NCBI GenBank assembly: GCA_026770025.1 | Contig: JAMXDE010000022.1 | Coordinates: forward strand, 620,001 to 684,000 | Reading direction: 5' to 3' | DNA: 64,000 nt | Source of the DNA: Craspedostauros australis | Taxonomy: Eukaryota; Bacillariophyta; Bacillariophyceae; Mastogloiales; Achnanthaceae | Shown: positions 1 through 54,880 of the stretch, one piece after another | Layout of the letters: every line of letters starts with the position of its first letter | Numbering within the stretch: the stretch's first letter is position 1 | The notes under the pieces: model-generated | Database searches by the model: none | What the model was told of the DNA's origin: nothing | The model's input: the letters and a program-made list of their open reading frames with translations, nothing else | Program-made: the position numbers and the translations under genes

Positions 1-1644
1 CGCATCCATCCGCGAAGGTGACGTAGGTCGGCTCGTAGAGGCGAAAGCCGAAGTACAGCAATCGACCTTCCACGGTGACCCCGCGAAAGCGGAGAACGCT
101 GTTGATCATCGGTGTTCCCCAGAGCATGGGATACAGCGACCAAATATGGACTGAGTAAGTGAACGATTGGTAGACCATGTACAGCGGCAAGCACCATGGC
201 GTCGTTCGCTCATTGCTTCCCGCGAACGTCATCAATATGTGGACACGCAAGAGCATGGTCCACACGATGGTCTGGATGATGACCGATAACACTACCAGTG
301 GGACTGCCTCGAATGATGTCTGTGGCTTGACGACATTCATCCATAGCTCAAAGGCTGGGATGAAGCTGATTGCCGCAACGAGCAGCGTGACAGCGTACAG
401 CAATGTGCTTGCCACAATGATCCCGGTCAGTTTCAAATCTGATCTGCTCTCGTTGCGCGGATCGGGCTTTGGATAAATGACGCTCTCCGTGATGTGTGTC
501 TGCGGCGAGACCAAAGCGTTGCGGACTGTCACACCCGGCGCGCAGGTCGTCAGCATCCCGATGCTGCTGTCCTCGATCGTGACTCTCTTGTATTCGTCGT
601 TTTCCTCGATGTGGAAGGTGACGACGGATACGAACGATCGTCGGATGGTGATGAGGTCGACTCCGGACGGATCGAAGCTGTCCCTGAAGATCTTTGATCG
701 CAGATCGATGTCCAATCCATGAGCCATGTGGATCAGGTTCCAAATGATCGAATTGGTGGTCAGTCCGTCGAGCATCATGCATGCTCGGTCGAAGTGATAA
801 TCGCATGCCCAGTCTGCAAATTCACTCCAGATACCGGTCCTCGCTTGGCCCGGTCTCTTCTTGCCGATCATCACCCACTTGAGTATGATGCTGGATATCA
901 CTAGCAGCACTGATGACAGACCAATGGATACAACCCAATATTGCAGTTTGGAGTATCTCCAGTCTCGGAGGTCATCGCGGACCAAGATATCGGAAATGAG
1001 GAAGCAGCAGAAGGTCATGTACAGCTCGACGAGCAGCCATGCTATCTTCATGCTACCCAGGATGATCCATCTGGTATCGTTGTCGTTCGGCGTTACGCTT
1101 CCGGCAATGTCTGCAGTTGTGCTCGCATCTGCTTGTTGCGGATCGTCGATGTCATTGTCGCTGCCATTGTCACCGTCGTCGCTGCCGTCAATGATAATGC
1201 TGTTGCGGCTACGTGACGCTGCCGTGCTTTCGACATATCCAGGATTTCCTCGGATAACGGTGTTGGGCGGTGCTTGGGCACCCTCCACCAGCACAGAAAC
1301 GTGCTGCACGTAGCAGTTGGAACCGACCTTGACGCCTGGGCTGAGAATGCCCTTGATCGTCGCATTCGATCCCACCTGGATCTTGCGGAACCGCAAGCTG
1401 GGCCCTTCTTCGTCTTTCCATGGTCCAAACATTCGACAACGGATCGGTTTGCTCACCAAGGCATTGGCGTCAACCTTCGCCAGATCGAACTCCCGAATGA
1501 AGGAATCGATGTTGCAGGACCGGTGGACATCTGCACCCATGAAGAAGCAGAACGCTGTCATCAATGGTGTGCCCGCGATGAAGCGTCCGACGAAGCTTTC
1601 CCACATATCCACGAGTCGGTCCACGAACCACCATCGAAGATAGT
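1..1644 (-). pseudogene. Paralog A, C-terminal part (Pls-like membrane/hexapeptide region), severed from its start
   Basis: This is the 3' half of the first of three FAAL-ACP-Pls-like paralogs. The minus frame is open from the insertion site to the window edge and aligns without frameshift to B (23835-25472) and C. It is 6 bp longer than B because of a two-codon difference that it shares with C. It covers the part after the second membrane segment: two hexapeptide-type (left-handed beta-helix) stretches and several hydrophobic segments. The last 82 codons or so lie outside the window. Retroelement E1 separates it from its 5' half at 8365-11136, so a normal transcript cannot join them unless the 6.7-kb element is spliced out. 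That no other lesion is visible suggests recent inactivation, or an insertion present on only one haplotype. Confidence 0.85.
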
Positions 1645-2170
1645 TATTAGCACAACGCTTTATTCACCTGATTCGTTTTCTGATTAGTCTGTCCTTGTAT
1701 GTGCTGAAACGATGCTTTCCTCAGACACATGATTTTCGACATGAGGGACACACTAGGGAACATCAGAGCTTCGGTCTGGCCACCACCCGGCAAACATGTG
1801 ATACCCAATCCGATCTGATATACTTCCCAACTAAACCTGAAATGACAACACACTCGACGACCTCAAGCATCATCAATGGAATGTGGAATCGACAGAGCCA
1901 TGGAACGGTGATGAATGACGTCGACACAGAAGACATCATCGCCACATCATGGGTCATCTCCACATCAGAACAAGATCGCAGAGGTGCAATGACTGAGAGC
2001 TGACCTTGAAGACAGGAACATGAGATACAACTCGATGAAGATAACATAGAACCAGAAGTCACTCAACCCAAACAGTGTCTTCACTCACCAGCTCGTCACC
2101 CTCGTCCTGAAAGACTTGATCTCTCTTGAAGGACTCGTGTGATTTCGCTGTGTACAACTACGTGATAACA
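1645..2170 (+). repeat. E1 5' LTR
   Basis: Starts TATTAGCAC and ends GTGATAACA; the 5' end is TA rather than the canonical TG. It is 526 bp and matches the right LTR except at 1711 (G against A) and 1772 (C against T). It should carry the element promoter and polyadenylation signals, which I could not place. Confidence 0.93.
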
Positions 2171-2320
2171 GATTAACAGTCGCACGCACTACGTCCTGAC
2201 CTGACTGCGTGAAAACACCTCCACCCCACCGAGCTGATCCCATCAGCAACGAACCAACTGCATCACGTGACGACGTGAAGCAGGAACCGAACAACAACAA
2301 GAGCCTCCCAAGGCAGCGCA

Positions 2321-2420
2321 AACGAACACACCGAGCACAGCGTATCCGCTTCTCCGTGACGAACCGAACAAACGAACACACCGAGCACAGCGTATCCGCT
2401 TCTCTGTGACGAACCGAACA
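2321..2420 (+). repeat. Two 50-bp tandem repeats in the E1 leader
   Basis: The segment starting AACGAACACACCGAGC repeats with a 50-bp period and one visible substitution. The second copy ends two bases before the gag-pol ATG at 2423, so the repeat forms the last part of the untranslated leader. Confidence 0.9.
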
Positions 2421-2422
2421 AG

Positions 2423-5400
2423 ATGACAGAACCCACCGACCCCATCACCATCCTGAACCACGTCCTCAAGGCCGTGGGTATCTCCGACGACTCCGACCAT
2501 CGCCGCATTATCATCGACGCAGCGGTGGAGAACGTTGACGACCTCACCTTCCTCACCAAGGAAGACCTCGACGGTCTTCATCGCGACATCACTCCCACCT
2601 CGGGAGACCCATACTCATGCCGATTGACTGTGTTGCACATTCGCAAGATCCTCGCACTCCCAATGTGGTATGACGCGCAAGCTGGCGACGGCGACTCCGT
2701 CTGGCTTGACCTGAACGCTGCGAGGCTCCAGACCTTCATGAGAGCTGAACTCAAGAAGCGTGTGGATGCCTCCATGCCGACACCCGAACCCACCATGTCA
2801 TCCATGGTGACACCACCACCACCTCCTGAACCTGTCTCTGACGGAGCCGCTGCCTTCGACAAGGGCATCAAGCGGAACCTCAGCGACTATCCGATCCTGA
2901 AGAGCGATGACCAGTTCATGGTCTTCGACAGACGTCTCCGAGCCACCGCTGCAGCGCACGGTGTGAAGAACGTCGTAGACCCCAAGTACCTCCCGACCCA
3001 AGACGAGTCTGAGCTGTTCGACAAACAGCGCACCTTCCTCTTCTACGTCTTGACCCACTGCCTCAGGACCACGAAGAGCCGCAACTGTCTCCAAGCATAC
3101 ACCGATGACGAGAACGGTCATGGGGTGTATACCATGCTCCGTGAAGAGTATGCAACCGGAGTAGCTGCAGCCAACAAGGCCCAGCTGATCCAAGAGGAGA
3201 TCCGAAACCTCAAGCTGAACCACTCCTGGAACGGCAGCCGCGAAGCCTTCGTGAACAGCTGGCTCAGCAAGATCAACGACCTCGAGGAGATCCAGGATGC
3301 TCCTGTCTCTGAGGACTGGAAGCTCCAGTGGCTCAAGGAGGCCATCACCCCTGACGCCGATCTCTTCCGTTCCCTTGACGACGCCGATGCTCTCCAGAGC
3401 AACTTGGCATTGGCGACAGGAAAGACCAACTTCAGGTTGGACTTCGATGCCTTCCTTGGCGTTGTTCGCAGATCCGCACAGCGCAACGATCTCCGCGTCC
3501 CACGCAACAAGACCAAGCGTAGGGTCAACAACACAAGCAAGGACGCAAGCAACAACGAGAACAAGACCAACCAATCCAAGAACAAGAGCACGAACAAGCG
3601 AATCCCAGACAACGAATGGAAGCAAATGACATGGGATCAGAAGAAGGCCCACATGCAATCCAAGGGTACTTGGGACCCCAAGTACACCAGGGATACATCG
3701 AACAGGCAGGCCAACAAGACATCCGCCACTGGCAATGGGGGTGGTGGGCAAGCCAAGTCCGCCTCGACCTCCGGCAGCGCCGGTTCTGACGAACTCCCTG
3801 GCGATGCCATCAAGCGCATGCTGGCCAATGCCACGACCAACACCAACACTTCTGACGAAGTCATCATCCAGGGCAAGGTCTACCGTGCTGTTCAGGCCAC
3901 AGTCCTGCAATACAGCTTCAACAAGACCGATGTTGCGAAGTCCGGTTCCCTGATCGACAGCGGTGCGAATGGAGGATTGGCAGGCGATGATGTGACTATC
4001 ATCAGCCGTACCAACCATACCGCCGACATCAGCGGAATTGGAGACACCGCAATCGTCAACCTGGACATCGGAACGGTCGCTGGACTCGTCATGTCCACCG
4101 AGGGACCTATCATCGCGAAGTTCCACCAATACGCCCTCTATGGAAAGGGCAAGACGATTCACTCGACGAATCAGCTCGGTGCCTTCGGTCTCGATGTCAA
4201 CGAGCGTCCTCGCGAACTCCCTGGAGGGAGACAGACAATCATCGTGCCTGATGGGCATGTGATCCCTCTCTCCATCCGACAGGGCCTGTCCTACATGGAC
4301 ATGAGGCCTCCCACACGCAAGGAGATCGACACGTACCCACACGTGGACTTCACCGCCGACGAAGAGTGGGACCCATCCACTCTCGACCACGAATTCACTT
4401 TGCTGGACGGGATCTCCGATGGTGCCCCAGACGACGGCGTCCAGTCACCAGACTCCATCGAAGTGTTCACCAGTGAGACAGGTGCCCCAAACCAGGGCGC
4501 TATCACTCGTGTGAAGCCGACGATCGACTGTGAGGCCCTCCGTCCGTACTTCGGATGGATCCCGGCCAGAAGAGTCCAAGACACTCTCAAGTGCACGTCC
4601 CAATGGTACCGCACCTCCGAGCGGTTCACCATGAGAAAGCACTTCAAGACCAGATTCCCTGCCGCGAACGTGGACAGGCTCCACGAGACCGTTGCCATGG
4701 ACACATTGTTCTCTGACACACCTGCACACGACGATGGTGTGCCAGGCCATGGTGGCAGCACGATGATGCAAGTATACGTGGCCGTGGATTCTCGCTTCAC
4801 CGCAGGATTCCCCATGACATCGGAGAAGCAAGTCGCTTCCACTCTCCAAGACTTCATCCGACGTCACGGAGCTCCTGACCTCCTGATGTCCGACAACGCA
4901 AAATCCGAGATCGGATTCAAGGTGCAAGACATCCTCCGGCAGTACTCCATCGCTGACCATCAGAGCGAGCCGGAGCACCAACACCAGAACGCCGCAGAGA
5001 GGCGTATCCAAGACATCAAGCGCATGACGAACGGCATCATGGACAGGACGGGCACACCTGCTCGTTTCTGGCTCATATGCACCATGTATGTCATTGTGCT
5101 CTTCAACCACTTGGCTCAGCGCACGGCAGGTAACGTCACGCCGATGCAGGCAGCCTACGGACACCGTCCCGATGTGAGCAAGTTCCTTGCCTACCGCTGG
5201 TGGCAGCTGGTGTACTACCGCGTGGAGAAACCTGGCTTTCCCAGCCAGTCCAAGGAGCGAAAGGGGAGGTGGGCCGGACCCTGCCTCCACAAAGGTGACG
5301 AACTCACCTTCTGGGTGTTGGACGATGACACCCAACAGCTCCTTCCTCGATCCTCGGTCCGTGCAGCCGACGAGCACGGCTCCCGCAACCTGCGTGTCGA

Positions 5401-7813
5401 CTTTCCCCTGGCCGACGTTGGGGAGGAAGACGGCTCGGACACGAACCCACCTGATGATGGGGAGCTTGACGACGACGTCCCAGTGCCTGATGGAATGCAA
5501 CCAGTTGTCCATTCCCTCGGAGACGCCGTTCTTTTCGCTTCTGCGGAGTCCGATCCTGGAACGACGGGCATGGCAAGAGTCTCCATCCCTCGATTCACAC
5601 CAGAGGATCTCATCGGCAAGACCTTCCTGTACGACCGCGACGGACAGAGAGTCAAGGCCGAAGTCATCCAACGTGTCAACGATGCAGATGCAGCGAACCA
5701 TCAGCGAATCAAGATGTTGCTCGCCTTCGACGATGGAGCCACCAACGAGCTCATCTCCTACGTCCAGCTGTCCGACATCATCGAACAGCAGCTCGAACAC
5801 AACGAAGACGACGAAGACGGAGTATGGGGATTCCAAGGCATCATCGGACACGAAGGACCACTCGCTCCGAACGCCAAGACCTACAAAGGGTCCCGATACA
5901 ATGTCATTGTACAATGGGATGACGGATCAACAACATCCGAACCACTCTCCACCATGTTGCAAGATGATCCTGTATCATGTGCAGCATACGGCCGAAAGAA
6001 CGGATTGCTCGATCAGCCTGGATGGAAACGGCTGAAGAAGCTCTCTGACCGACAGGCTCGAATGGAGCGCAAGACCTCCATCAACAAGGCCAAGAAGCAC
6101 ACCAACGCACCCATCTACCAGTTCGGTGTTCAGGTACCACGCAACCACCAAGAAGCCGTACGCCTCGACAAACGCAACGGCAACACGCTCTGGGCGGATG
6201 CAGAACGTACCGAGATGGAACAGCTCTTCGGATATGAGACATTCCGATCGCTCGGCAAGACCAAGACCATTCCAGACGGATACCAACAGATCCGGCTGCA
6301 ATGGGTCTATGCCGTCAAGCATGACCTCCGACACCGAGCACGATGTGTGGCAGGAGGCCACCTGACGGATCCATGCAAGGACTCCTCCTACGCCGGAGTT
6401 GTCAGCTTGCAGTCACTCCGAATCGCCCTACTCGCTGGCGAACTGAACGGACTCAAGACCATGGTCGGCGATATCGGCAACGCCTACCTGGAGGCATACA
6501 CGAAGGAGAAGATCTGCTTCGTAGCCGGCGACGAGTTCGGGGAGCACGCAGGCCACATGCTCACGATTGTCAAGGCGCTCTACGGCCTCCGGACATCCGG
6601 AGCTCGCTTCCACGAAGCGCTGGCAGATACCCTCCGAGACATGGGCTTCCAGCAGTGCAGGTCTGACCCCGATGTATGGATGCGTGATGCAGGTCCGCAC
6701 TGGGAATACGTTTGCGTATACGTGGACGATCTCATGGCGGTCATGTCTGACCCACGCTCCTTCTTTGACACTCTCACTTCGCAGTATGGCTACAAGCTCA
6801 AAGGTGTCGGCCCCATCTCCTACCATCTAGGAGCAGACTTCGGAAGAGACAGCGACGGCACAATGAAAATCAGCGCGCGTTCCTACATCAAACGCATGCT
6901 CACGAACTACGAACAGATGTTCGACGGACCACCCAACAAGACCAGCTGCCCCATGGACAAGGACGACAGTCCTGAGCTCGATACGACACCAGAGCTCGGG
7001 GAGATCGATCGAACCAAGTACATGTCGTTGATCGGAGCACTCCAATGGTGTGTGTCTCTGGGAAGGATCGACATACATGTGGCGGTCATGACTCTCTCCC
7101 GTTTCCGTGCATCACCAAGAGCAGGACACATGGACAGAGTGAAACGCATCTACGGGTACCTTCGTAAATACCCAGACGCCTCCATCCGCTTCCGAACCGG
7201 AATCCCCAACCATGAAGAACACTACGACATCCCGCAGCACGAATGGATGTACTCTGTGTACGGACCCAACCAAGAGGAGCTGCCAGCGGATGCACCAACA
7301 GCCAAAGGCAAACCCGTACGTACCACGACTTTCGTTGATGCGAATCTCATGCACTGCAAGGTGACTGGGAAATCAGCAACCGGTATCGTGCATCTCATAA
7401 ACCAAACACCCATCGAATGGTTCTCGAAGCGACAGTCTACCGTGGAGACGGCCACCTACGGATCAGAATTCGTGGCAGCACGGTTGGCAACAGAACAGAT
7501 CCTATCCATCCGCCTGATGCTGTGCGAAATGGGAATACCTGTGGACGGCCCAAGCTGGCTCTTTGGTGACAACCAGAGCGTAGTCACATCCTCCACCATC
7601 CCAACCAGTGTACTATCCAAGAGACACAACGCACTGGCCTACCACCGAGTCCGATCGGCCATCGCCGCTGGGACGATGTACTTCATCAAGATCAAGGGAA
7701 ACCAGAACATTGCCGACATCCTCACGAAGTTCCTTCCACGGTCGGTTTTCTGGGACCTCATCCAACCACTGTTGTTCTGGAAGGGCAACACCGATCCCAA
7801 CCACAACAAGTGA
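2423..7813 (+). CDS. E1 Gag-Pol polyprotein (Ty1/copia), 1,796 aa
   Basis: A single uninterrupted frame encodes Gag, protease, integrase, reverse transcriptase and RNase H in copia order. Visible landmarks are the protease active site LIDSGAN (Asp about 512); an integrase triad Asp 760, Asp 824, Glu 859 with the classical 35-residue D-to-E spacing; an RT with the KHDLRHRARCVAGG fingers region, GDIGNAYLEA, and the catalytic YVDD near 1433; and an RNase H ending in ADILTKFLP. Gag has no CCHC zinc knuckle; a Lys/Asn-rich basic stretch (about 360-450) may bind RNA instead. The integrase N-terminal HHCC motif is not obvious. Start choice: the first ATG after the tandem leader, with the frame open from it. 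Gag and Pol are fused without a frameshift, as is usual for copia elements. Confidence 0.95.
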   Translation: MTEPTDPITILNHVLKAVGISDDSDHRRIIIDAAVENVDDLTFLTKEDLDGLHRDITPTSGDPYSCRLTVLHIRKILALPMWYDAQAGDGDSVWLDLNAARLQTFMRAELKKRVDASMPTPEPTMSSMVTPPPPPEPVSDGAAAFDKGIKRNLSDYPILKSDDQFMVFDRRLRATAAAHGVKNVVDPKYLPTQDESELFDKQRTFLFYVLTHCLRTTKSRNCLQAYTDDENGHGVYTMLREEYATGVAAANKAQLIQEEIRNLKLNHSWNGSREAFVNSWLSKINDLEEIQDAPVSEDWKLQWLKEAITPDADLFRSLDDADALQSNLALATGKTNFRLDFDAFLGVVRRSAQRNDLRVPRNKTKRRVNNTSKDASNNENKTNQSKNKSTNKRIPDNEWKQMTWDQKKAHMQSKGTWDPKYTRDTSNRQANKTSATGNGGGGQAKSASTSGSAGSDELPGDAIKRMLANATTNTNTSDEVIIQGKVYRAVQATVLQYSFNKTDVAKSGSLIDSGANGGLAGDDVTIISRTNHTADISGIGDTAIVNLDIGTVAGLVMSTEGPIIAKFHQYALYGKGKTIHSTNQLGAFGLDVNERPRELPGGRQTIIVPDGHVIPLSIRQGLSYMDMRPPTRKEIDTYPHVDFTADEEWDPSTLDHEFTLLDGISDGAPDDGVQSPDSIEVFTSETGAPNQGAITRVKPTIDCEALRPYFGWIPARRVQDTLKCTSQWYRTSERFTMRKHFKTRFPAANVDRLHETVAMDTLFSDTPAHDDGVPGHGGSTMMQVYVAVDSRFTAGFPMTSEKQVASTLQDFIRRHGAPDLLMSDNAKSEIGFKVQDILRQYSIADHQSEPEHQHQNAAERRIQDIKRMTNGIMDRTGTPARFWLICTMYVIVLFNHLAQRTAGNVTPMQAAYGHRPDVSKFLAYRWWQLVYYRVEKPGFPSQSKERKGRWAGPCLHKGDELTFWVLDDDTQQLLPRSSVRAADEHGSRNLRVDFPLADVGEEDGSDTNPPDDGELDDDVPVPDGMQPVVHSLGDAVLFASAESDPGTTGMARVSIPRFTPEDLIGKTFLYDRDGQRVKAEVIQRVNDADAANHQRIKMLLAFDDGATNELISYVQLSDIIEQQLEHNEDDEDGVWGFQGIIGHEGPLAPNAKTYKGSRYNVIVQWDDGSTTSEPLSTMLQDDPVSCAAYGRKNGLLDQPGWKRLKKLSDRQARMERKTSINKAKKHTNAPIYQFGVQVPRNHQEAVRLDKRNGNTLWADAERTEMEQLFGYETFRSLGKTKTIPDGYQQIRLQWVYAVKHDLRHRARCVAGGHLTDPCKDSSYAGVVSLQSLRIALLAGELNGLKTMVGDIGNAYLEAYTKEKICFVAGDEFGEHAGHMLTIVKALYGLRTSGARFHEALADTLRDMGFQQCRSDPDVWMRDAGPHWEYVCVYVDDLMAVMSDPRSFFDTLTSQYGYKLKGVGPISYHLGADFGRDSDGTMKISARSYIKRMLTNYEQMFDGPPNKTSCPMDKDDSPELDTTPELGEIDRTKYMSLIGALQWCVSLGRIDIHVAVMTLSRFRASPRAGHMDRVKRIYGYLRKYPDASIRFRTGIPNHEEHYDIPQHEWMYSVYGPNQEELPADAPTAKGKPVRTTTFVDANLMHCKVTGKSATGIVHLINQTPIEWFSKRQSTVETATYGSEFVAARLATEQILSIRLMLCEMGIPVDGPSWLFGDNQSVVTSSTIPTSVLSKRHNALAYHRVRSAIAAGTMYFIKIKGNQNIADILTKFLPRSVFWDLIQPLLFWKGNTDPNHNK

Positions 7814-7838
7814 CTGCGAAAAGATACGTTTCGGGGAG

Positions 7839-8364
7839 TATTAGCACAACGCTTTATTCACCTGATTCGTTTTCTGATTAGTCTGTCCTTGTATGTGCTG
7901 AAACAATGCTTTCCTCAGACACATGATTTTCGACATGAGGGACACACTAGGGAACATCAGAGCTTTGGTCTGGCCACCACCCGGCAAACATGTGATACCC
8001 AATCCGATCTGATATACTTCCCAACTAAACCTGAAATGACAACACACTCGACGACCTCAAGCATCATCAATGGAATGTGGAATCGACAGAGCCATGGAAC
8101 GGTGATGAATGACGTCGACACAGAAGACATCATCGCCACATCATGGGTCATCTCCACATCAGAACAAGATCGCAGAGGTGCAATGACTGAGAGCTGACCT
8201 TGAAGACAGGAACATGAGATACAACTCGATGAAGATAACATAGAACCAGAAGTCACTCAACCCAAACAGTGTCTTCACTCACCAGCTCGTCACCCTCGTC
8301 CTGAAAGACTTGATCTCTCTTGAAGGACTCGTGTGATTTCGCTGTGTACAACTACGTGATAACA
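7839..8364 (+). repeat. E1 3' LTR
   Basis: 526 bp, same termini as the left LTR, directly after the purine run GGGGAG. The reading frame of paralog A continues a short way into it from the right before stopping. Confidence 0.93.
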
Positions 8365-11136
8365 ATAGTAGGAGTACGCGAGGTTGGTGTATCCCTCTTG
8401 GTACCTGCCAATGATGATCCACTTCGACAGGATGACCTCCAGCGTGAGCGTGAACAGCCAGAATGGGACGACCAGCGGGTAGCACATCCAGATGAAAGGC
8501 GACGAATCGATGAAGAAGACAACGCGGGTGCGATTGTCGTTGGCCAGGACTTTGCCGATTTCATAGGCTGGGATGATGGGCAAAGCGAACATGAAGAGGA
8601 TGATGAGCACGCCGATGACCTGGATGACGGTGGATGTTGTTTGGGGGAACCGTTTCTCATTGTGCATGGTGGTAAGCTTGTTAAGCGCCGGGAGACGCGT
8701 TGGGAGCGGTTCTCCATGCGATGTCTCGAGGAATGTTTTGAGATCCATGAGCGTTGGAAACATCTCGAAGCAATTTGAAGGGAGGGTGGTGCTGTACCGT
8801 TTTGACAGTGATTGCCGGAGCTCCAGTTCCGCCATGGATGACAATCCAACATCCTCCCACGTTTCATCTCCCTTGACTTGCGATCCCGTTGCGTTCGCGA
8901 TGATCTCGTTGAAGGTCTTACTTTGGAGGTCGTCGTCGTGGTCTGCGTTCCTCGTCAATATCGTTGCTGCTGTTGACGACTTGGCATCACCATCCAGTGC
9001 AACTTGGGCGGTTGAATTTGGGTTTGCGCTGAAGTTCAAGATCATTTTCTGGTCTCCGTCATGCAAACGTTGTCGGTTGCGGCGTCTCTGGATCTTCCCG
9101 CTTGTTGTTTTGGAGATGGTGCGTTCTTTGACGGCTGCGACTGTTGCCGGTGTCAACCCGATGTGTTCGATCACGGCCTTTCTGATCTCCTGACAGACTG
9201 TTGCGGCATCGTCTGCGTGATTGGCTCGGATCTCAAATACGATCTCGAGCTGTCCATCGTTGCCTGAATCGTCGGACGAGAAGGCAGCGACGCAGCCTGG
9301 ACGGACAGCGGATGATGCCTCTTCAACAGCGTGCTCGATATCTTGCGGGTAGTAGTTGACACCGTTGACGATGATGATGTCCTTCTTGCGGCCGCAGATG
9401 TAGAGGTAGTCATCTTGGTAGAAACCGTAGTCACCTGTGCGCAAGTACATCTTGCTGCCAGCATCGGATGATGCATCGCCTTGGAGTGTAGCTTGGAAGG
9501 TTTCGGCGGTGAGCTGCTGGGCTTGGTTATAGTACCCGGCTGCGACAGAGGCCCCGGCGATCCAGATCTCTCCTGTGACGTTGTCTGGACGTTGGACGCA
9601 GGTGTCCGGGTCCACGATGATGATATCGATGGAGCTGTGCAGATTGCTGCGTTCGGCGATAGCCACAAACGGGTGGAGATCTTCACCTTCGCGGATGGTT
9701 GAGAGATAAAAGTCGTGATTGTAGCAGGTGCCAACGACGTTCTCAGCTAGTCCGTACGCCACGAGGAACCAATCCTTGCGCAGGCCGTATGGGCAGAATG
9801 CGTCGGCGAACTCCTTTTTCGTGTCAAGTCGGATTGGCTCTGCGGCATTCTGGAGATGAAGGACACTTGAGAGGTCCAGATTGGGGATGGAATTAGCCTT
9901 TCTGTTGGCTTGTTTGTTGGCTTCGTTGAATTTGCGGACGACCAGACGATACGCAAAGTCAGGGGCGGCACTGAAATGGCACTTGTGCTGGGACATGAGG
10001 TCCACCCAGAGCAACGGGTTGCGGATGAATGTGACAGGGGATATCATGTGGACTCGGGAATTCGATGCCAGTGGCACAATCACCATTTGAATGAGGCCCA
10101 TGTCATGGTACTGAGGCAACCATGAAAAGGTGGTAAATCGCCCCAGGATTTGCATCTCGTTTGCACCTTTTTCAAAGCATGTGAGGAAACTGCTGTGAAA
10201 TAGTTCAATGTTGGCTCTCAGGGCGGCATGCGTCACCATGACGCCCTTGGGATTGCCTGTGCTTCCAGATGTGTACTGGAGGAACGCCAGATCCGATCCT
10301 GCGATGTTGGGTTCATCGAATGAAGGCGGCGGCGATGATGAACGGCCAGAGATGAGGCTGGAAAGGAAGCCTTTCTTGGCTTGCTTGTTCTTGCCGTTGG
10401 TCTTGTCCGTGATGAAGCCATCATGGCGAATGATGCGATCGGTGACTTGGTACTTCACCCCGCTTGGCCACATGGAGCGGCTCCTGGATGTTGGGTTGGC
10501 GCGATCGGCGGCTCGAAGGAGATTGATGGATGTTTGGGTGAGGATGAGTGCTGGAGCGCAATCCTCGATCACCTTGTTCATCTTGGTGAGCGACTTGACA
10601 AGCGGAGGTCCGGGAGGGTAGACCAACACGGCTGTTACTCCTGCACGAAGACATCCCAAGAAGACAGCGAAGAAGTGCAGACCGAAGTCGTAGCAGAGAA
10701 CGACGCGATCGCCTTTCTTGACGTCCCACTTGTTGCGGAGGAGATGGGCGCATTGGCCGGCTTCATCCCAAAGCTGCTGGAAGGTGTAGTTGTTGATTGC
10801 CTTTCCCTTGTCGTTGTACCAAGTGGAAAAGACGATGTCGGACTTGAGCTCGACGACGAACTTGAGATGGTCGAGGAAGGATTTGTTTTGGATGGATTTG
10901 TGGATGACATCATGCTCGCTGATGACAGCAGGGCTGCTGATGCCGTCGGACGAAGCCAATGTCGTTGATGCCTGCGACGGAGGCAATGATTGTGGCTTGA
11001 TGATGCCGGCTTCGACATCATCTGTGATGTCTGGCAGAGGAGAGTGCTCGTCATTGCTGCTGGATTTGTTGGATGCAGTTGTTGCGACATCGCCGGTATT
11101 GTCTTCGGCTGTTTGGTTACGGTCGTCGTCGCGCAT
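8365..11136 (-). pseudogene. Paralog A, N-terminal part: FAAL-like adenylation domain, acyl carrier domain, first membrane segments
   Basis: The frame runs unbroken from ATG 11136 (start MRDDD, shared by all three paralogs) to the E1 junction, about 924 codons. It shows the adenylate-forming signature TSGSTGNPKG, the RTGDYG and GRKKDIIIVNG motifs, the lysine-bearing SKTTSGK, then a carrier domain around GLSSMAELE, then two hydrophobic segments. After the junction it reads about 25 foreign residues from the E1 LTR and stops. If expressed, it would give an adenylation-carrier protein lacking the C-terminal membrane/hexapeptide half. The substrate-binding part (about 9180-10210) is clearly more diverged from B and C than the flanking parts. 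An in-frame upstream ATG (MKKQSK) exists here and in C but is out of frame in B, so I prefer MRDDD. Confidence 0.88.
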
Positions 11137-14910: not shown

Positions 14911-14934
14911 TGCCGAGATGTACATGTGAGTATA

Positions 14935-15762: not shown

Positions 15763-15800
15763 CCCTTCCATTGCCGCTCCAACCATATCATCCACCATGT

Positions 15801-20006: not shown

Positions 20007-20049
20007 GATGATGATGATGAAGGTGGATGATGGCTTGTTGGTGCGGGGT

Positions 20050-20084
20050 GAAACGTAGGATTTCAATCGTAACGTTTCGAAACG
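20050..20084 (-). promoter_or_regulatory. E2 leader next to the 5' LTR with a 12-bp palindrome (candidate primer binding site)
   Basis: 35 bases directly after the 5' LTR, identical to 22405-22439 of E3, although the elements differ elsewhere. It contains the perfect palindrome CGTTTCGAAACG at 20073-20084. The position is that of the primer binding site, but no tRNA CCA-end match (TGG) is seen, so priming by an internal tRNA fragment is possible. Confidence 0.5.
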
Positions 20085-23586: not shown

Positions 23587-26500
23587 TCAAGCTGTATCTG
23601 AATGGACCATCTCCTGGGAGGTTTGCGTTTGTCCTCCACCCAGCGATTGCTCCGAGTTCATGAGGAGATGCTGAGGTCCGTGTTCAACCAGCCTTGCTTT
23701 GTCCGCGGTTGCTGCCGTCTTGGTTGCCATCATGACAGCACAATTTTGGTGCAACACTCCGCTGACATACGACTTCCCCAAAGTCAGTTGGGAGAATACG
23801 CCGCAGTGACCAGTGATCCAACATTCATCGACGACGCATCCATCCGTGAAGGTGACGTAGGTCGGCTCGAAGAGGCGGAAGCCGAAGTAGAGCAAGCGAC
23901 CTCCAACGTTGACCCCACGAAAGCGGAGAACGCTGTTGATCATCGGTGTTCCCGAGAGGATGGGATACAGCGACCATACATGGACTGAGTAAGCGAACGA
24001 TTGGTAGACCATGTACAGCGGCAAGCACCATGGCGTCGTTCGCTCATTGCTTCCCGCGAACGTCATCAATATGTGGACACGCAAGAGCATGGTCCACACG
24101 ATGGTCTGGATGATGACCGATAGCACCACCAGTGGGACCGCCTCGAATGATGACTGCGGCTTGACGACATTCATCCATAGCTCAAAGGCTGGGATGAAGC
24201 TGATTGCCGCAACGAGCAACATGACAGCGTACAGCAATGTGCTCGCCACCATGATCCCGGTCAGTTTCGAGTCTGATACTCTCTTGTTGCGCGGATCGGG
24301 CTTTGGATAAATGACGCTCTCCGTGATGTGTGTCTGCGGCGAGACCAAAGCGTTGCGGACTGTCACACCCGGCGCGCAGGTCGTCAGCATCCCGATGCTG
24401 CTGTCCTCAATCGTGACTCTCCTGTATTCGCCGTTTTCCTCGATGTGGAAGGTGACGACGGATACGAACGATCGTCGGATGGTGATGAGGTCGACTCCGG
24501 ACGGATCGAAGCTGTCCCTGAAGATCTTTGATCGCAGATCGATGTCCAATCCATGAGCCATGTGGATCAGGTTCCAAATGATCGAATTGGTGGTCAGTCC
24601 GTCGAGCATCATGCATGCTCGGTCGAAGTGATAATCGCATGCCCAGTCTGCAAATTCACTCCAGATACCGGTCCTCGCTTGGCCCGGTCTCTTCTTGCCG
24701 ATCATCACCCACTTGAGTATGATGCTGGATATCACTAGCAGCACTGATGACAGACCAATGGATACAACCCAATATTGCAGTTTGGAGTATCTCCAGTCTC
24801 GGAGGTCATCGCGGACCAAGATATCGGAAATGAGGAAGCAGCAGAAGGTCATGTACAGCTCGACGAGCAGCCATGCTATCTTCATGCTACCCAGGATGGC
24901 CCATCTGGTATCGTTGTCGTTCGGCGTTACGCTTCCGGCAATGTCTGCAGCTGTGCTCTCATCTGCTTGTTGCGGATCGTCGATGTCATTGTCATTGTCG
25001 CCATCGTCGCTGTCGTCAGCGCTGATACTGATGCTGCTACGTGACGCTGCCGTGCTTTCGACATATCCAGGATTGCCCCGGATACCGGTGTTGGGCGGTG
25101 CTTGGGCACCCTCCACCAGCACAGAAACGTGCTGCACGTAGCAGTTGGAACCGACCTTGACGCCTGGACTGATAATGCCCTTGATCGTCGCATTCGATCC
25201 CACCTGGATCTTGCGGAACCGCAAGCTGGGCCCTTCTTCGTCTTTCCATGGTCCAAACATTCGACAACGGATCGGTTTGCTCACCAAGGCATTGGCGTCA
25301 ACCTTCGCCAGATCGAACTCCCGAATGAAGGAATCGATGTTGCAGGACCGGTGGACATCTGCACCCATGAAGAAGCAGAACGCTGTCATCAATGGTGTGC
25401 CCGCGATGAAGCGTCCGACGAAGCTTTCCCACATATCCACGAGTCGGTCCACGAACCACCATCGAAGATAGTAGGAGTACGCGAGGTTGGTGTATCCCTC
25501 TTGGTACCTGCCAATGATGATCCACTTCGACAGGATGACCTCCAGCGTGAGCGTGAACAGCCAGAATGGGACGACCAGCGGGTAGCACATCCAGATGAAA
25601 GGCGACGAATCGATGAAGAAGACAACGCGGGTGCGATTGTCGTTGGCCAGGACTTTGCCGATTTCATAGGCTGGGATGATGGGCAAAGCGAACATGAAGA
25701 GGATGATGAGCACGCCGATGACCTGGATGACGGTGGATGTTGTTTGGGGGAACCGTTTCTCATTGTGCATGGTGGTAAGCTTGTTAAGCGCCGGGAGACG
25801 CGTTGGGAGCGGTTCTCCATGCGATGTCTCGAGGAATGTTTTGAGATCCATGAGCGTTGGAAACATCTCGAAGCAATTTGAAGGGAGGGTGGTGCTGTAC
25901 CGTTTTGACAGTGATTGCCGGAGCTCCAGTTCTGCCATGGATGACAATCCAACATCCTCCCACGTTTCATCTCCCTTGACTTGCGATCCCGTTGCGTTCG
26001 CGATGATCTCGTTGAAGGTCTTACTTTGGAGGTCGTCGTCGTGGTCTGCGTTCCTCGTCAATATCGTTGCTGCTGTTGACGACTTGGCACCGCCATCCTG
26101 CGCTATTTGGGAGGTTGGATTTGGGTTTGCGATGAAGTTCAAGATCATTTTCTGGCCTCCGTCATGCAAACGTTGTCGGTTGCGGCGTCTCTGGATCTTC
26201 CCGCTTGTTGTTTTGGAGATGGTGCGTTCTTTGACGGCTGCGACTGTTGCCGGTGTCAACCCGATGTGTTCGATCACGTCCTTTCTGACCTCCCGACACA
26301 CCGATGCTGCATCATCCGCACGGCTCGCTCGAATCTCAAATACGATCTCGAGCTGTCCGTCGTTGCCTGAATCATCAGATGAGAATGCCGCGACACATCC
26401 TGGACGGACGGCAGATGAGGCCTCTTCAACAGCATGCTCGATATCTTGCGGGTAGTAGTTGACACCATTGACGATGATGATGTCCTTCTTGCGTCCGCAA

Positions 26501-37713: not shown

Positions 37714-37717
37714 TTAA

Positions 37718-39469: not shown

Positions 39470-40313
39470 TGTGTGCTCTGTTCTCTGGATACTCTGGTGT
39501 TGCAGATTTGTAGCTTGTTGGTTGTTGCTGATTGCTGATTGCTTTGCAGTAGGTTTGATGTTCAAAGCTCGATGCCTTGCCTGCTGCTGGTTGCTTTCTC
39601 CTGGATCCTTTCCATGGATTTGTTGTTTGTGGCTGCATGCTCAGCTCTCTTCTGGATATGCTTTTCTGGAATCTCTTGGTTGGGTAAACTGTGGATTCTC
39701 TGGTTGGGTCAAGTGGTGTGCTGGATGCTCCTCCCTCTCTCTCTCTTGTAAATCCTCACTGCCAATTCACTACTGCTTGCCAAATGACATCTGGCAAGGA
39801 TCACTGCTGATGCATTGATAGTTGGTGGTGGCAGAATACTCTGATCGATGCTCAGCCATGTGTGAAGTTGTTGGGTGTGATCAGAAGCTCTCCAGCTGCT
39901 GTCTGGAGCTGCCCACTCATTGTTGATCATTGGCAGATGTTTCAGCTCCTGCCGCATGCTGTGTTCTGATTGGCAAGTTGTTTCAGAATACAGAATGCAG
40001 TCTGCATGTTGGATAATGCTGACAAATTCATTGTACATTGGTGTCTGGCAGATGCTTCGCTGGATGTTTTGCCTGCTGTTTTTACATTGGCAATGTGTGG
40101 TCTGATGAGATGGTGAAGACAGAGCAAAGGAACAATGGATACACCATGCATGCCCACTTCAATTGTTGCAAAGGATGATGGTGTCATTGCTGAAACGATC
40201 AGTGACGTAAGCATAGCATGCCAAGTCCATGACTCAGTGCACCGCACATCTGCGAAAGTCAGGAGGTTCTGCAATGAATGACAACTCTGTTGCTTTGCTA
40301 CAGTGAGGAAATG
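39470..40313. other. Gene-free stretch
   Basis: TTG/CTG-rich sequence without a convincing gene or known repeat ends. Confidence 0.45.
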
Positions 40314-44940: not shown

Positions 44941-44988
44941 ACTCACTGGCGACATATCCGTAAGGATAATTTTATGTGGGCGTTTTCG

Positions 44989-49890: not shown

Positions 49891-49899
49891 TATGCGGTC

Positions 49900-52800
49900 T
49901 CAAGCTGTACCTGAATGGACCATCTCCTGGGAGATTTGGGTTTGTCCTCCACCCAGCGATTGCTCCGAGTTCATGAGGAGATGCTGAGGTCCATGCTCAG
50001 CCAACCTTGCTTTGTCCGCGGTTGCTGCCGTCTTGGTTGCCATCATGACAGCACAATTTTGGTGCAACACTCCGCTGACATACGACTGTCCCAAACTCAG
50101 TTGATAGAATACGCCGCTGTGACCAGTGATCGAACATTCATCGACGACACATCCATCTGCGAAGGTGACGTAGGTTGGCTCGTAGAGGCGGAAGCCGAAG
50201 TAGAGCAAGCGACCTTCCAAGGTGACCCCACGAAAGCGGAGAACGCTGTTGATCATCGGTGTTCCCCAGAGCATGGGATACAGCGACCAAATATGGACCG
50301 AGTAAGTAAACGATTGGTACACCATGTACAGCGGCAAGCACCATGGCGTCGTTCGCTCATTGCTTCCAGCGAATGTGATCAAAGAGTGCACACGCAAGAG
50401 CATGGTCCATACGATGGTCTGGATGATGACCGATAGCACCACCAGTGGGACCGCCTTGAATGATGTCTGTGGCTTGACGACATTCATCCATAGCTCAAAG
50501 GCTGGGATGAAGCTGATTGCCGCAACGAGAAGCGTGACAGCGTCCAGCAATGTGCTCGCCACCAAAATCCCGGTCAGTTTCAAAGTTGATTGGCGCTTGT
50601 TGCGCGGATCGGGCTTTGGATGGATGACGCTCTCCGTGATGTGTGTCTGCGGCGAGACCAAAGCGTTGCGGACTGTCACCCCTGGCGCGCAGGTGGTCAG
50701 CATCCCGATGCTGCTGTCCTCGATCGCTACTCTCCTGTATTCGTCGTTTTCCTCGATGTGGAAGGTGACGATGGATATGAATGATCGCCGGACGGTGACG
50801 AGGTCGACGTCGGATGGATGGAAGCTGTCGCTGAAGACCTTTGATCGCAGATCGATGTCCATTCCATGAGCTATGTGGACCAGGTTCCAAATGATCGAAT
50901 TGGTGGTCAGTCCGTCGAGCATCAAACATGCTCGGTCGAAGTGATAATCGCATGCCCAGTCTGCGAATTTACTCCAGATACCGGTCCTTGCTTGGCCCGG
51001 TCTCTTCTTGCCGATCATGACCCACTTGAGTATGATGCTGGATATCACTAGCAGGACTGATGACAGACCAATGGATACAACCCAATATTGCAGTTTGGAG
51101 TATCTCCAGTCTCGGAGGTCATCGCGGACCAAGATATCGGAAATGAGGAAGCAGCAGAAGGTCATGTACAGCTCGACGAGCAGCCATGCTATCTTCATGC
51201 TACCCAGGATGATCCATCTGGTATCGTTGTCGTTCGGCGTTACGCTTCCGGCAATGTCTGCAGCTGTGCTCGCATCTGCTTGTTGCGGATCGTCGATGTC
51301 ATTGTCGCTGCCATTGTCACCGTCGTCGCTGCCGTCAATGATAATGCTGTTGCGGCTACGTGACGCTGCCGTGCTTTCGACATATCCAGGATTTCCTCGG
51401 ATAACGGTGTTGGGCGGTGCTTGGGCACCCTCCACCAGCACAGAAACGTGCTGCACGTAGCAGTTGGAACCGACCTTGACACCTGGACTGAGAATGCCCT
51501 TGATCGTCGCATTCGATCCCACCTGGATCTTGCGGAACCGCAAGCTGGGCCCTTCTTCGTCTTTCCATGGTCCAAACATTCGACAACGGATCGGTTTGCT
51601 CACCAAGGCATTGGCATCGACTTTCGCCAGATCGAACTCCCGAATGAAGGAATCGATGTTGCAGGACCGGTGGACATCTGCACCCATGAAGAAGCAGAAC
51701 GCTGTCATCAATGGTGTGCCCGCGATGAAGCGCCCGACGAAGCTTTCCCACATATCCACGAGTCGGTCCACGAACCACCATCGAAGATAGTAGGAGTACG
51801 CGAGGTTGGTGTATCCTTCTTGGTACCTGCCAATGACGATCCACTTCGACAGGATGACCTCCAGCGTGAGCATGATCATCCAGAATGGGATGACCAGCGG
51901 GTAGCACATCCAGATGAAAGGCGACGAATCGATGAAGAAGACAACGCGGGTGCGATTGTCGTTGGCCAGGACTTTGCCGATTTCATAGGCTGGGATGATG
52001 GGCAAAGCGAACATGAAGAGGATGATGAGCACGCCAATGACCTGGATGGTGGTGGATGTTGATTGGGAGAGCCGTTTCTCGTTGCGCATGGCAGTAAGCT
52101 TGTTAAGCGCCGGGAGACGCGTTGGGAGCGGTTCTCCATGCGATGTCTCGAGGAATGTTTCGAGATCCATGAGCGTTGGAAACATCTCGAAGCAATTTGA
52201 AGGGAGGGTGGTGCTGTACCGTTTTGACAGTGATTGCCGGAGCTCCAGTTCCGCCATGGATGACAATCCAACGTCCTCCCACGTTTCATCTCCCTTGACT
52301 TGCGATCCCGTTGCGTTCGTGATGATCTCATGGAAAGTCTTACTTTGGAGGTCGTCGTCTTGGTCTGCGTTCCTCGCTGACATGGTTTCGGTTGGCGATG
52401 TCTTGGCATCGCCATCCTGTGCAACTTGGGCGGTTGGATTTGGGTTTGCGCTGAAGCTGAATATTGCTTTCTGGTCTCCATCGTGCAGACGTTGTCGGTT
52501 GCGGCGTCTCTGGATCTTCCCGCTTGTTGTTTTGGAGATGGTGCGTTCCTTGACGGCTGCGATTGCTGCTGGTGTCAATCCGATGTGCTCCATCACGGCC
52601 TTTCTGATCTCCTGACAGATTGTTGCAGCATCGTCTGTATGGTTGGATCGGATCTCAAAGACGATCTCGAGCTGTCCATCGTTGCCTGAATCATCAGATG
52701 AGAATGCCGCGACACATCCTGGACGGACGGCAGATGAGGCCTCTTCAACAGCATGCTCGATATCTTGCGGGTAGTAGTTCACACCATTGACGATGATGAT

Positions 52801-54606
52801 GTCCTTCTTGCGTCCGCAAATGAAGAGATGATCATCTTGGAAGAATCCGTAGTCTCCCGTTCGCAAGTACGTCTTGGTCGAAGGGCGGCCTCCATTGCTG
52901 TCACCGTCAGCGGCGTTCTCGCCATTGCCATCGCCATCGGATGGAGGATCTTGCAGCTTCGCATGAAATTCGTCAGCGGTGAGCTGGGCTTGATTGTAGT
53001 ACCCGGCTGCGACAGAGGCCCCGGCGATCCAGATCTCTCCAGTGGTATTTTCTGGACGTTTCACGCAGGTGTCCGGGTCCACAATGATGATGTCAATCGA
53101 TTGGTGTAGAGTATTGCGGTGTGCAATTGCCACAGATGGATGCAGATCTTCACCTTCGCGGATGGTAGAAACATGAAATCCATGCTTGAAACTCACGCCA
53201 ACCACATTCTCTGCAAGACCATACCCAGCCACAAACCATTCCTCGCGCAGGCCGTATGGGCAGAATGCGTCAGAGAAGTGCTTTTCTGTGTCCAGCCGTG
53301 TTGGTTCGGCCGCGTTTTGCAGATGATACACGTTGGATAGGTCGAGGTTCGGGATGGGATGACCTTTTCCAGTCTGCTTGCTCTTGGCCTCGTTGAACTT
53401 GCGTGTTGCAAGGCGGTACGCAAAGTCTGGCGCAGCACTCATGTGGCACTTGTGCCGCGAGATCAGATCAATCCACAGCAGCGGGTTGCTGATAAATGAG
53501 ACGGGCGACAGCATATGGAGACGGAAGGCACCGGACAAAGGCGCAATGCCCATCTGGATCAGACCCATGTCATGGTACTGCGGTAGCCATGAGCATGCCG
53601 TGATTCTCTTTGGTATTTTGCCTCTATCACCCACGTCATTTTCAAAGCAATCCAGCCAACCACCATGGAGAAGTTCGATGTTAGCCCTCAGTGCGGCATG
53701 CGTCACCATCACACCCTTGGGGTTGCCGGTGCTTCCAGATGTGTACTGGAGGAACGCCAGATCCGATCCTGCGATGTTGGGTTCATCGAATGAAGGCGGC
53801 GGTGATGATGAACGGCCAGAGATGAGGCTGGAAAGGAAGCCTTTCTTGGCTTGCTTGTTCTTGCCGTTGGTCTTGTCCGTGATGAAGCCATCACGGCGAA
53901 CTATGCGATCTGTGACTTGGTACTTCACCCCGCTTGGCCACATGGAGCGGCTCTTGGATGTTGGGTTGGCGCGATCGGCGGCTCGAAGGAGATTGATGGA
54001 TGTTTGGGTGAGGATGAGTGCTGGAGCGCAATCCTCGATCACCTTGTTCATCTTGGTGAGCGACTTGACGAGCGGCGGTCCAGGAGGATAGACCAGCACG
54101 GCAGTCACGCCTGCACGAAGACATCCCAAGAAGACAGCGAAGAAGTGCAGACCGAAGTCGTAGCAGAGAACGACACGGTCGCCTTTGTTGACGTCCCACT
54201 TGTTGCGGAGGAGATGGGCGCATTGGCCGGCTTCATCCCAAAGCTGCTGGAAGGTGTAGTTGTTGATTGCCTTTCCCTTGTCGTTGTACCAAGTGGAAAA
54301 GACGATGTCGGACTTGAGCTCGACGACGAACTTGAGATGGTCGAGGAAGGATTTGTTTTGGATGGATTTGTGGATGACATCATGCTCGCTGATGACAGCA
54401 GGGCTGCTGATGCCGTCGGACGAAGCCAATGTCGTTGATGCCTGCGACGGAGGCAATGATTGTGGCTTGATGATGCCGGCTTCGACATCATCTGTGATGT
54501 CTGGCAGAGGAGAGTGCTCATCATTGCCTCTGGGTGTATCGGATGCGGTTGTTGCGACATCGCCAGAACTGTCTTCGGTCGTTTGATCATGGTCGTCGTC
54601 GCGCAT
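49900..54606 (-). CDS. Paralog C: FAAL-like adenylation / acyl carrier / Pls-like membrane protein, 1,568 aa
   Basis: Intact. Same domain order as B: TSGSTGNPKG, RTGDYG, GRKKDIIIVNG, SKTTSGK, carrier GLSSMAELE, two membrane segments, hexapeptide stretch, further membrane segments and a second hexapeptide-like stretch before the C-terminus. It resembles B in the substrate region (for example DPPSDG-rich loop before RTGDYG) but shares with A a Ser/Asp-rich linker after the first hexapeptide stretch. The frame is open upstream of ATG 54606 through an in-frame ATG (MKKQSK) that is not conserved in frame in B, so 54606 is preferred. Its own 5' flank is conserved; its 3' flank has an insertion. Confidence 0.88.
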   Translation of the reverse strand: MRDDDHDQTTEDSSGDVATTASDTPRGNDEHSPLPDITDDVEAGIIKPQSLPPSQASTTLASSDGISSPAVISEHDVIHKSIQNKSFLDHLKFVVELKSDIVFSTWYNDKGKAINNYTFQQLWDEAGQCAHLLRNKWDVNKGDRVVLCYDFGLHFFAVFLGCLRAGVTAVLVYPPGPPLVKSLTKMNKVIEDCAPALILTQTSINLLRAADRANPTSKSRSMWPSGVKYQVTDRIVRRDGFITDKTNGKNKQAKKGFLSSLISGRSSSPPPSFDEPNIAGSDLAFLQYTSGSTGNPKGVMVTHAALRANIELLHGGWLDCFENDVGDRGKIPKRITACSWLPQYHDMGLIQMGIAPLSGAFRLHMLSPVSFISNPLLWIDLISRHKCHMSAAPDFAYRLATRKFNEAKSKQTGKGHPIPNLDLSNVYHLQNAAEPTRLDTEKHFSDAFCPYGLREEWFVAGYGLAENVVGVSFKHGFHVSTIREGEDLHPSVAIAHRNTLHQSIDIIIVDPDTCVKRPENTTGEIWIAGASVAAGYYNQAQLTADEFHAKLQDPPSDGDGNGENAADGDSNGGRPSTKTYLRTGDYGFFQDDHLFICGRKKDIIIVNGVNYYPQDIEHAVEEASSAVRPGCVAAFSSDDSGNDGQLEIVFEIRSNHTDDAATICQEIRKAVMEHIGLTPAAIAAVKERTISKTTSGKIQRRRNRQRLHDGDQKAIFSFSANPNPTAQVAQDGDAKTSPTETMSARNADQDDDLQSKTFHEIITNATGSQVKGDETWEDVGLSSMAELELRQSLSKRYSTTLPSNCFEMFPTLMDLETFLETSHGEPLPTRLPALNKLTAMRNEKRLSQSTSTTIQVIGVLIILFMFALPIIPAYEIGKVLANDNRTRVVFFIDSSPFIWMCYPLVIPFWMIMLTLEVILSKWIVIGRYQEGYTNLAYSYYLRWWFVDRLVDMWESFVGRFIAGTPLMTAFCFFMGADVHRSCNIDSFIREFDLAKVDANALVSKPIRCRMFGPWKDEEGPSLRFRKIQVGSNATIKGILSPGVKVGSNCYVQHVSVLVEGAQAPPNTVIRGNPGYVESTAASRSRNSIIIDGSDDGDNGSDNDIDDPQQADASTAADIAGSVTPNDNDTRWIILGSMKIAWLLVELYMTFCCFLISDILVRDDLRDWRYSKLQYWVVSIGLSSVLLVISSIILKWVMIGKKRPGQARTGIWSKFADWACDYHFDRACLMLDGLTTNSIIWNLVHIAHGMDIDLRSKVFSDSFHPSDVDLVTVRRSFISIVTFHIEENDEYRRVAIEDSSIGMLTTCAPGVTVRNALVSPQTHITESVIHPKPDPRNKRQSTLKLTGILVASTLLDAVTLLVAAISFIPAFELWMNVVKPQTSFKAVPLVVLSVIIQTIVWTMLLRVHSLITFAGSNERTTPWCLPLYMVYQSFTYSVHIWSLYPMLWGTPMINSVLRFRGVTLEGRLLYFGFRLYEPTYVTFADGCVVDECSITGHSGVFYQLSLGQSYVSGVLHQNCAVMMATKTAATADKARLAEHGPQHLLMNSEQSLGGGQTQISQEMVHSGTA

Positions 54607-54880
54607 GATGGAGGGAGAGAAGGTGGGTATGTGAACGAATAGTCGTGTACTGGTATTATGCGAGATGAATTTGCTCTGTTTCTTCATTTTGTGGCCATCC
54701 ACTGCGATTCCGTTGTTGTTTGTTCCTGTTGGTTCGTCATCACCCACAGTTGATACAGTTTCCGATCAAGACAGAAACGAGTTGGTCATGTTGGCGCAAG
54801 AGCATTTGTCCCTCGAGTCCCTGTGAAGAACATCCCGAAAAGACCGTCATAGGCAACACGAGACTGTTTCGGAGCATTTT
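54607..54880 (-). promoter_or_regulatory. Conserved 5' flank of paralog C
   Basis: Similar to the upstream flanks of A and B up to about 54880, after which similarity ends. Putative promoter and leader. Confidence 0.4.

Follow-up and report, generated by a model that had tools for sequence, protein, structure and literature searches.

A diatom gene family joining fatty acyl-AMP ligase-like, carrier and Pls/PosA-like membrane domains in one predicted protein

Results

Family copies in the window

The stretch of DNA analysed here, hereafter the window, comprises 64,000 nucleotides of contig C20 of the diatom Craspedostauros australis (C20:620001-684000), within a 74.8-Mb assembly of 90 contigs. 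It carries three copies of a gene family whose products join a fatty acyl-AMP ligase (FAAL)-like domain, a carrier domain and a membrane region resembling the terminal domain of Pls/PosA-type synthetases. The copies and their features are listed below in window positions.

1..1644, minus strand: copy 1, 3' part (C-terminal half, starting just past the first membrane pair), 96.5% identity to copy 2
1645..8364, plus strand: Copia-type long terminal repeat (LTR) retrotransposon within copy 1, with LTRs and RVT_2
8365..11136, minus strand: copy 1, 5' part (FAAL, carrier, first membrane segments), truncated by the inserted element
23587..28287, minus strand: copy 2, intact and in a single exon, encoding 1566 aa
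23590..25797, minus strand: copy 2, Pls/PosA-like terminal region, residues 831-1566, with three membrane pairs alternating with three beta-helix-aligned regions; conserved His1494
25834..26007, minus strand: copy 2, carrier domain, residues 761-818, VGLSSM motif (PF00550)
26128..28050, minus strand: copy 2, FAAL domain, approximately residues 80-720 (PF00501, E = 7e-55; best NCBIfam models FAAL-type)
49900..54606, minus strand: copy 3, intact and in a single exon, from the ATG at 54606 to the stop at 49900

A sequence-only reading of this DNA had described three same-strand paralogues forming a tandem family. All three copies do lie on the minus strand, but copy 1 is interrupted by the LTR element, which leaves two intact genes, and "tandem" is a loose term for copies that are spaced 12-22 kb apart in DNA rich in transposable elements and belong to a genome-wide family. 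A fourth copy is located at C20:600548-605251, beyond the window. The 5' part of copy 1 shares 87.8% identity with copy 2 and 86.7% with copy 3, has an AMP-binding match and a PP-binding match below the cut-off, and its frame departs from the family sequence at the edge of the element. The 3' part runs past the left edge of the window, and its continuation is seen in L008 and C20:619813-621642. The inserted Copia element is young; its two 526-bp LTRs (1645-2170 and 7839-8364) are 99.62% identical, and its internal frame (2423-7813) matches RVT_2 (PF07727, E = 2e-22). When aligned to copy 2, the flanks of copy 1 share a 5-bp overlap, read as a probable target duplication. Copies 2 and 3 are 94.3% identical across 4991 bp and their downstream homology continues piecewise, a pattern that we read as a probable segmental duplication later broken by insertions.

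The N-terminal half: FAAL and carrier domains

Pfam searches of the FAAL half returned AMP-binding together with PF23024 (AMP-dom_DIP2-like, E = 9e-9 to 1e-7, above the cut-off). The top NCBIfam models were FAAL-type: PRK05850 scored 287 bits in copies 2 and 3 and 299 bits in copy 1, where PRK05691, a long polyketide synthase (PKS)/nonribosomal peptide synthetase (NRPS) model, reached 301 bits. In copy 2 the FadD32 model scored 270 bits and the CoA ligase model PRK06187 only 114 bits, and on these model scores an ordinary CoA ligase is rejected. The amino-acid adenylation model TIGR01733 (cut-off 317) gave 121-127 bits in the three window copies (123 in copy 2). Two observations weigh against the FAAL assignment, namely that the FAAL-type scores, like those of the other NCBIfam models named here, lie under the curated cut-offs of their models and that PRK07768, a named CoA ligase, scored 247 bits in copy 2. 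By these model scores, FAAL is the best-matching adenylate-forming family of the N-terminal half.

The best PDB chains for this half were 7r7g/7r7f/7r7e and 3kxw, which we take to be FAAL domains; some chains ranked after them carry the label acyl-CoA synthase or FadD32. Aligned to 7r7g, copies 2 and 3 display the motifs YTSGSTGNPKG, HDMGLI, LRTGD and SGKIQRR, presumably all four catalytic motifs, with the P-loop in the first and the C-terminal catalytic lysine in the last. The stretch after YGLAEN, the expected site of the FAAL-specific insertion, is shorter than its 7r7g counterpart in the sequence alignment.

Seven family copies were used to assess the carrier. Taken alone, it exceeded the PF00550 cut-off of 20.8 bits in five of the seven (22.7-25.4 bits; 22.9 in copy 2) and fell below it in L001 (17.3) and L002 (14.5), whereas inside the whole protein it scored 17.2-17.9 bits, under the cut-off, in all three window copies (17.2 in copy 2). 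The GLSS motif is present in all seven, and VGLSSM in copy 2 is read as holding the putative phosphopantetheine serine. Family searches of the window copies found no match to a condensation or thioesterase domain. The FAAL-like and carrier domains of the sequence-only reading were thus recovered, as was the absence of these two domain types, and the adenylation domain did not turn out to be an unrelated CoA ligase.

Several observations touch this half from elsewhere. PF01648, the phosphopantetheinyl transferase (PPTase) family, has two matches genome-wide; a PPTase-family match at C12:564399-564659 lies about 9 kb from a family member (C12:551152-555546), and in Sphingomonas (L036) a PPTase gene immediately follows the Pls gene. 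L007 (C18:982000-987500) encodes a FAAL of the same kind without carrier or C-terminal half, at 53% identity to copy 2 and with the tblastn match confined to copy 2 residues 86-752; it is possibly the free-standing relative. L006 (C1), which also has an AMP-binding match, is not a family member and reads as an NRPS-like adenylation-carrier-reductase protein.

The C-terminal half: a Pls/PosA-like membrane region

According to two papers (PMC10522769, PMC7179176), Pls/PosA proteins consist of an adenylation domain and a carrier, followed by a C-terminal domain that crosses the membrane with six segments grouped in three pairs and in which three left-handed beta-helices have been modelled. For comparison, 27 genome loci and 7 plasmid loci with bacterial relatives were collected; the genome loci are a biased sample because exact matches to two peptide patterns were used to pick them. 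Of these, 20 genome loci and 4 plasmid loci entered alignment A2, 21 genome loci entered A3, and A4 contains 16 sequences. Five loci gave no frame at threshold (L029, L031, L032, L034, L035), three were short (L030, L040, L042), and L013 and L036 were omitted from A2.

In an hhalign comparison of the 736 C-terminal residues, seven diatom sequences aligned to 24 bacterial terminal domains with a probability of 99.9 and E = 3.9e-35 over 557 columns, up to residue 664 of 736; a local run gave E = 1.4e-48 over 633 columns, placing 3-735 of 736 onto 1-728 of 728. Pairwise tblastn covered 19-26% of the query, in the first repeat only. On this profile evidence, the diatom terminal region is homologous to the Pls/PosA terminal domain. 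Past the carrier, copy 2 has hydropathy peaks at 853-871, 888-926 (merged), 1140-1158, 1173-1191, 1347-1365 and 1384-1402, i.e., six predicted membrane segments in three pairs, with helices at the same places in the AlphaFold2 (AF2) model; the scan is a simple one, with a further peak within the FAAL domain (145-173) and extra weaker peaks in L001 and L005. The model further predicts at least one clear hexapeptide acyltransferase fold in this half. A multi-pass C-terminal region with hexapeptide strands, proposed from sequence earlier, is consistent with both predictions. Its Pls-type character emerged from hhalign, while TIGR02353, the profile suggested as a check, scored 76.1 and 70.2 bits, far under its curated cut-off of 423.1.

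That low score is one of several points that weigh against reading the protein as a self-loading membrane acyltransferase. Repeats 2 and 3 are strongly diverged and both poorly modelled by AF2, and diatom repeat 3 matches bacterial repeat 1 (E = 3e-7) better than bacterial repeat 3 (E = 1.4e-3). The motif QTHLFEDR of the bacterial third repeat, a criterion of this analysis rather than a published one, is invariant in A4 (16/16), whereas the diatom copies retain only its His1494 and Phe1498. The alignment of the two third repeats that positions this histidine is modest (probability 69%, E = 4.4e-5), and among solved structures the bacterial profile matches gamma-carbonic-anhydrase-type chains best, rather than acyltransferases. 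The histidine itself is aligned in all 23 rows of A3 and in 7/7 paralogues; by analogy with hexapeptide acyltransferases, it may be the acyl-transfer base. Among the best 60 of 110 PDB sequence matches, none covered more than part of the bacterial terminal domain, and the diatom third-repeat profile had no PDB match at E <= 10. The PosA paper describes the Pls terminal domain as lacking an experimental structure (PMC10522769).

Search for the fusion elsewhere

N-terminal domains were classified in 20 bacterial relatives (18 genome, 2 plasmid). All 20 passed TIGR01733 at 330-451 bits, and FAAL models had no match among them at E <= 1e-60. A search of loci L009-L042 with the diatom FAAL domain gave no frame at E <= 1e-3 when the database size was set to 1e8; with plain database size the best score there was 61.6 bits, against 251-286 bits for the listed plasmid FAAL-type proteins. 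Among the best 20 of 688 matching plasmid records, FAAL-type records matched copy 2 over approximately residues 29-847 at 27-33% identity, residue 847 being the furthest reach, and none of the 688 has a single place covering 80% of copy 2. In H23 a FAAL-type protein is followed by a polyketide synthase gene, and the Rhizobium record behind H26 has no listed 300-aa frame over the FAAL match. A fusion of FAAL with a Pls-type terminal domain was therefore found neither at the 27 genome loci of the biased sample nor in the plasmid records. Viral contigs scanned with the diatom C-terminal alignment yielded 159 pattern matches and no relative. No title or consulted passage in the literature searched, mostly outside subscription papers, describes the fusion; FAAL-acyl carrier protein (ACP) didomains, FAAL-PKS/NRPS proteins and Pls are known separately (PMC11837247, PMC10522769).

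Copy number and selection

With copy 2 as the genome query, 30 of 64 candidates were scored and gave 30 matches at 61-100% identity on 17 contigs, with frames of 1473-1626 aa; the aligned stretch is stop-free in 27 of them, and the other three contain one TAA. A second search used the C-terminal half of L004, which among the fetched copies has diverged most, and gave 50 matches (45/45 candidates scored). This query adds four places, assessed by the C-terminal half and frame length, with full C-terminal matches and frames of 1513-1575 aa (C63:222076, C25:211605, C1:140838, C49:5256), and about six broken or fragmentary places, copy 1 among them. The genome thus holds at least 34 full-length family members. 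An uncollapsed second haplotype as the source of this number is ruled out, since the control families PF00709 and PF01268 each occupy one locus, each in two pieces, and the assembly is therefore not two stacked haplotypes.

In all 21 pairs of the seven copies compared (out of at least 34), the ratio of nonsynonymous to synonymous divergence (dN/dS) was 0.13-0.30 in the FAAL domain and 0.21-0.39 in the C-terminal half. The paralogues evolve under purifying selection; the family is therefore not a chance one, and a family of pseudogenes is ruled out by these ratios together with the stop-free copies.

Mosaic evolution of the paralogues

Synonymous divergence (dS) differs sharply between the two halves of the proteins. 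Between L001 and L002 it is 0.06 in the FAAL domain and 1.05 in the C-terminal half; between L003 and copy 2 the order is reversed (0.60 and 0.15). Trees of the same seven copies agree with this discordance: the middle of the FAAL domain places L003 with L001 and L002 (support 100), whereas the C-terminal half sets copies 2, 3 and L003 apart from the rest (support 100). Copy 1 is itself a mosaic. In a scan reporting runs of at least 4 sites, it is L003-like across copy 2 residues ~305-643, a stretch spanning the region between the P-loop and the C-terminal subdomain, and copy-2-like on both sides with few short exceptions. The flanks of the genes follow the same pattern, with L002 and L004 92% identical upstream and L003 and copy 2 91% identical downstream. 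Together, the discordant dS values, the trees, the copy 1 mosaic and the flanks indicate that the paralogues exchange FAAL cores and C-terminal halves.

Silicon transporters and other genome observations

The silicon transporter family PF03842 has 88 matches in this genome (e.g., C2:977655-1028778, C9, C24 and C61) and none above the cut-off in the control genomes. Leaving out 31 smaller pieces, the remaining 57 matches form 56 loci, 33 of them with a match of at least 1.4 kb, and in-frame stops occur in 4 of these 33. PMC10328945 reports 3-8 silicon transporter genes per diatom and 1-2 in Parmales, the latter with genomes of 31-44 Mb; silicon transporters are greatly expanded in this genome, and the matches agree best with a diatom. 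At 3 of 30 places a FAAL-family member lies 1.1-2.4 kb from a silicon transporter gene (C9:2024068-2032517, C9:2433084-2441534, C11:710408-717688; 0.26 expected within 3 kb, nominal P 0.002), and a family fragment at C11:855311 adjoins a transporter at C11:852576. The near-equal spacing of the two C9 pairs probably reflects a single arrangement that was duplicated, which makes the evidence for proximity thin.

Further mobile DNA was identified in the window. A second young LTR element (14935-20912), with 828-bp LTRs of 99.9% identity, encloses a minus-strand frame of 1421 aa that reads as gag-pol-like. A repeat of ~800 bp occurs five times in both orientations at 80-96% identity (13256-14059, 20913-21695, 33234-34031, 38663-39470, 59140-59936), and 31277-33259 holds a DDE_Tnp_1_7 (PF13843) transposase frame (E = 3e-33), presumably PiggyBac-type. 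Elsewhere in the assembly, C83 (79,752 bp) and C90 (133,148 bp) are AT-rich, with 26% GC across the first 7 kb; C83 starts with a 92-aa frame repeated each 772 bp, and two 10-kb stretches of C90 contain no frame of 120 aa. C89 (66,255 bp) looks mitochondrial, with tRNAs, a group II intron and organelle-type frames.

Discussion

Hexapeptide acyltransferases such as the maltose/galactoside O-acetyltransferases and LpxA/LpxD are soluble homotrimers using acyl-CoA or free acyl-ACP as donors, whereas the diatom protein has three regions aligned to left-handed beta-helices within a single membrane chain that also bears the donor carrier. The DIP2 family, the known eukaryotic FAAL-like proteins, shares both attributes with the diatom family; no DIP2 protein is known to combine a carrier with a Pls-like domain. 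DIP2 proteins have two FAAL-like domains, unlike the diatom proteins (PMC11837247). That review also covers bacterial FAAL-ACP didomains and FAAL-PKS/NRPS loading modules such as HapA and NocH, in which FAAL is likewise fused to a carrier; those carriers supply a PKS or NRPS, while the diatom carrier precedes, within one chain, a membrane domain that resembles acyltransferases. A further likeness is with the epsilon-poly-L-lysine and delta-poly-L-ornithine synthetases (Pls/PosA, including fungal Epls), whose ~730-residue membrane domain is homologous to the diatom terminal region, with the same element order. The diatom proteins differ from these in having FAAL where Pls/PosA have an amino-acid adenylation domain, in the diverged repeats 2 and 3 with QTHLFEDR reduced to its histidine and phenylalanine, in the low family score, and in numbering at least 34 paralogues in one genome.

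FAALs load carriers instead of CoA (PMC8460268). Given a carrier in the same chain and a membrane domain resembling hexapeptide acyltransferases, the simplest reading is loading in cis followed by transfer, and we hypothesize, with about even confidence, that each protein is a self-loading, membrane-integral acyltransferase. The cytosolic FAAL domain would convert free fatty acid and ATP to fatty acyl-AMP, and the carrier next to it would receive the acyl group on its phosphopantetheine arm, without CoA. The C-terminal part, with three helix pairs each followed by a left-handed beta-helix, would correspond to a hexapeptide-acyltransferase trimer in one chain and move the acyl group to an amine or hydroxyl acceptor at the membrane, with the conserved histidine of the third beta-helix region (His1494 in copy 2) as a candidate general base. 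Ordinary fatty acids lack a second amine, so each would end up in a single amide or ester, in contrast to the Pls polymer. Activation and loading follow from the predicted family membership, while for transfer we infer a role from homology, a modelled fold and one conserved residue. A self-loading acyl carrier at a membrane, which had seemed plausible from the sequence, is supported by this analysis.

The chief alternative is that the C-terminal region has lost catalysis and serves only as a membrane anchor or scaffold, the acyl-ACP being handed to a separate PKS, ketosynthase or acyltransferase. This would agree with the loss of the E-D-R portion of the bacterial third-repeat motif and with the near disappearance of similarity among the diatom repeats (E = 0.06 for repeats 1 and 2, 0.0025 for 1 and 3, 0.77 for 2 and 3; 1e-35 to 1e-57 in bacteria), and bacterial FAAL-ACP didomains supplying other enzymes are known (PMC11837247). 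However, the C-terminal half is under purifying selection, the aligned histidine is kept in all seven paralogues, and full length is retained where a mere anchor needs far less; we therefore consider this alternative unlikely, though it deserves serious attention. Less probable still is a Pls-like polymerase that would load a bifunctional hydroxy- or amino-fatty acid and make an oligoester or oligoamide at the membrane. The terminal domain is homologous to one that Pls needs for polymerisation (PMC10522769), and FAAL replaces the amino-acid domain, but nothing points to a bifunctional substrate and the bacterial motif around the histidine is altered. An ordinary amino-acid homopolymer synthetase of the Pls type with a diverged adenylation domain would share the C-terminal homology; with TIGR01733 at 121-127 bits, compared with 330-451 in all 20 bacterial relatives, and FAAL-type models at ~287-301 bits, a true amino-acid Pls is rejected and the idea is very improbable. 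It is hardly credible that the genes are passengers of mobile or unstable DNA without selected function, as the number of full-length copies and several fragments in a genome rich in transposable elements and the LTR element in copy 1 might suggest, given dN/dS of 0.13-0.39 in both halves of all 21 pairs, 27/30 scored copies stop-free and two single-locus control families.

If the proteins are indeed self-loading acyltransferases, the many mosaic paralogues suggest an enzyme set differing by chain length or acceptor. More speculatively, and with low expectation, the family could represent fatty-acyl transferases or polymerases of a eukaryotic class, self-loading and membrane-bound, that arose when a FAAL-carrier pair was joined to a Pls scaffold. 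In this silicifying alga they would have been amplified together with the silicon transporters and diversified by swapping acyl-pocket and acceptor cassettes, and would yield acylated amines or polyesters at a membrane, possibly the one on which silica forms. Isopeptide homopolymers are the products of the Pls terminal domain, and a version using a fatty-acid donor, if true, would show it to be a general carrier-linked acyltransferase and not only an amino-acid polymerase. For assays, it would also offer a FAAL of eukaryotic origin to which both a carrier and an acceptor domain are tethered. The many family members, their mosaic evolution and the expansion of silicon transporters offer a testable lead in diatom lipid and wall chemistry.
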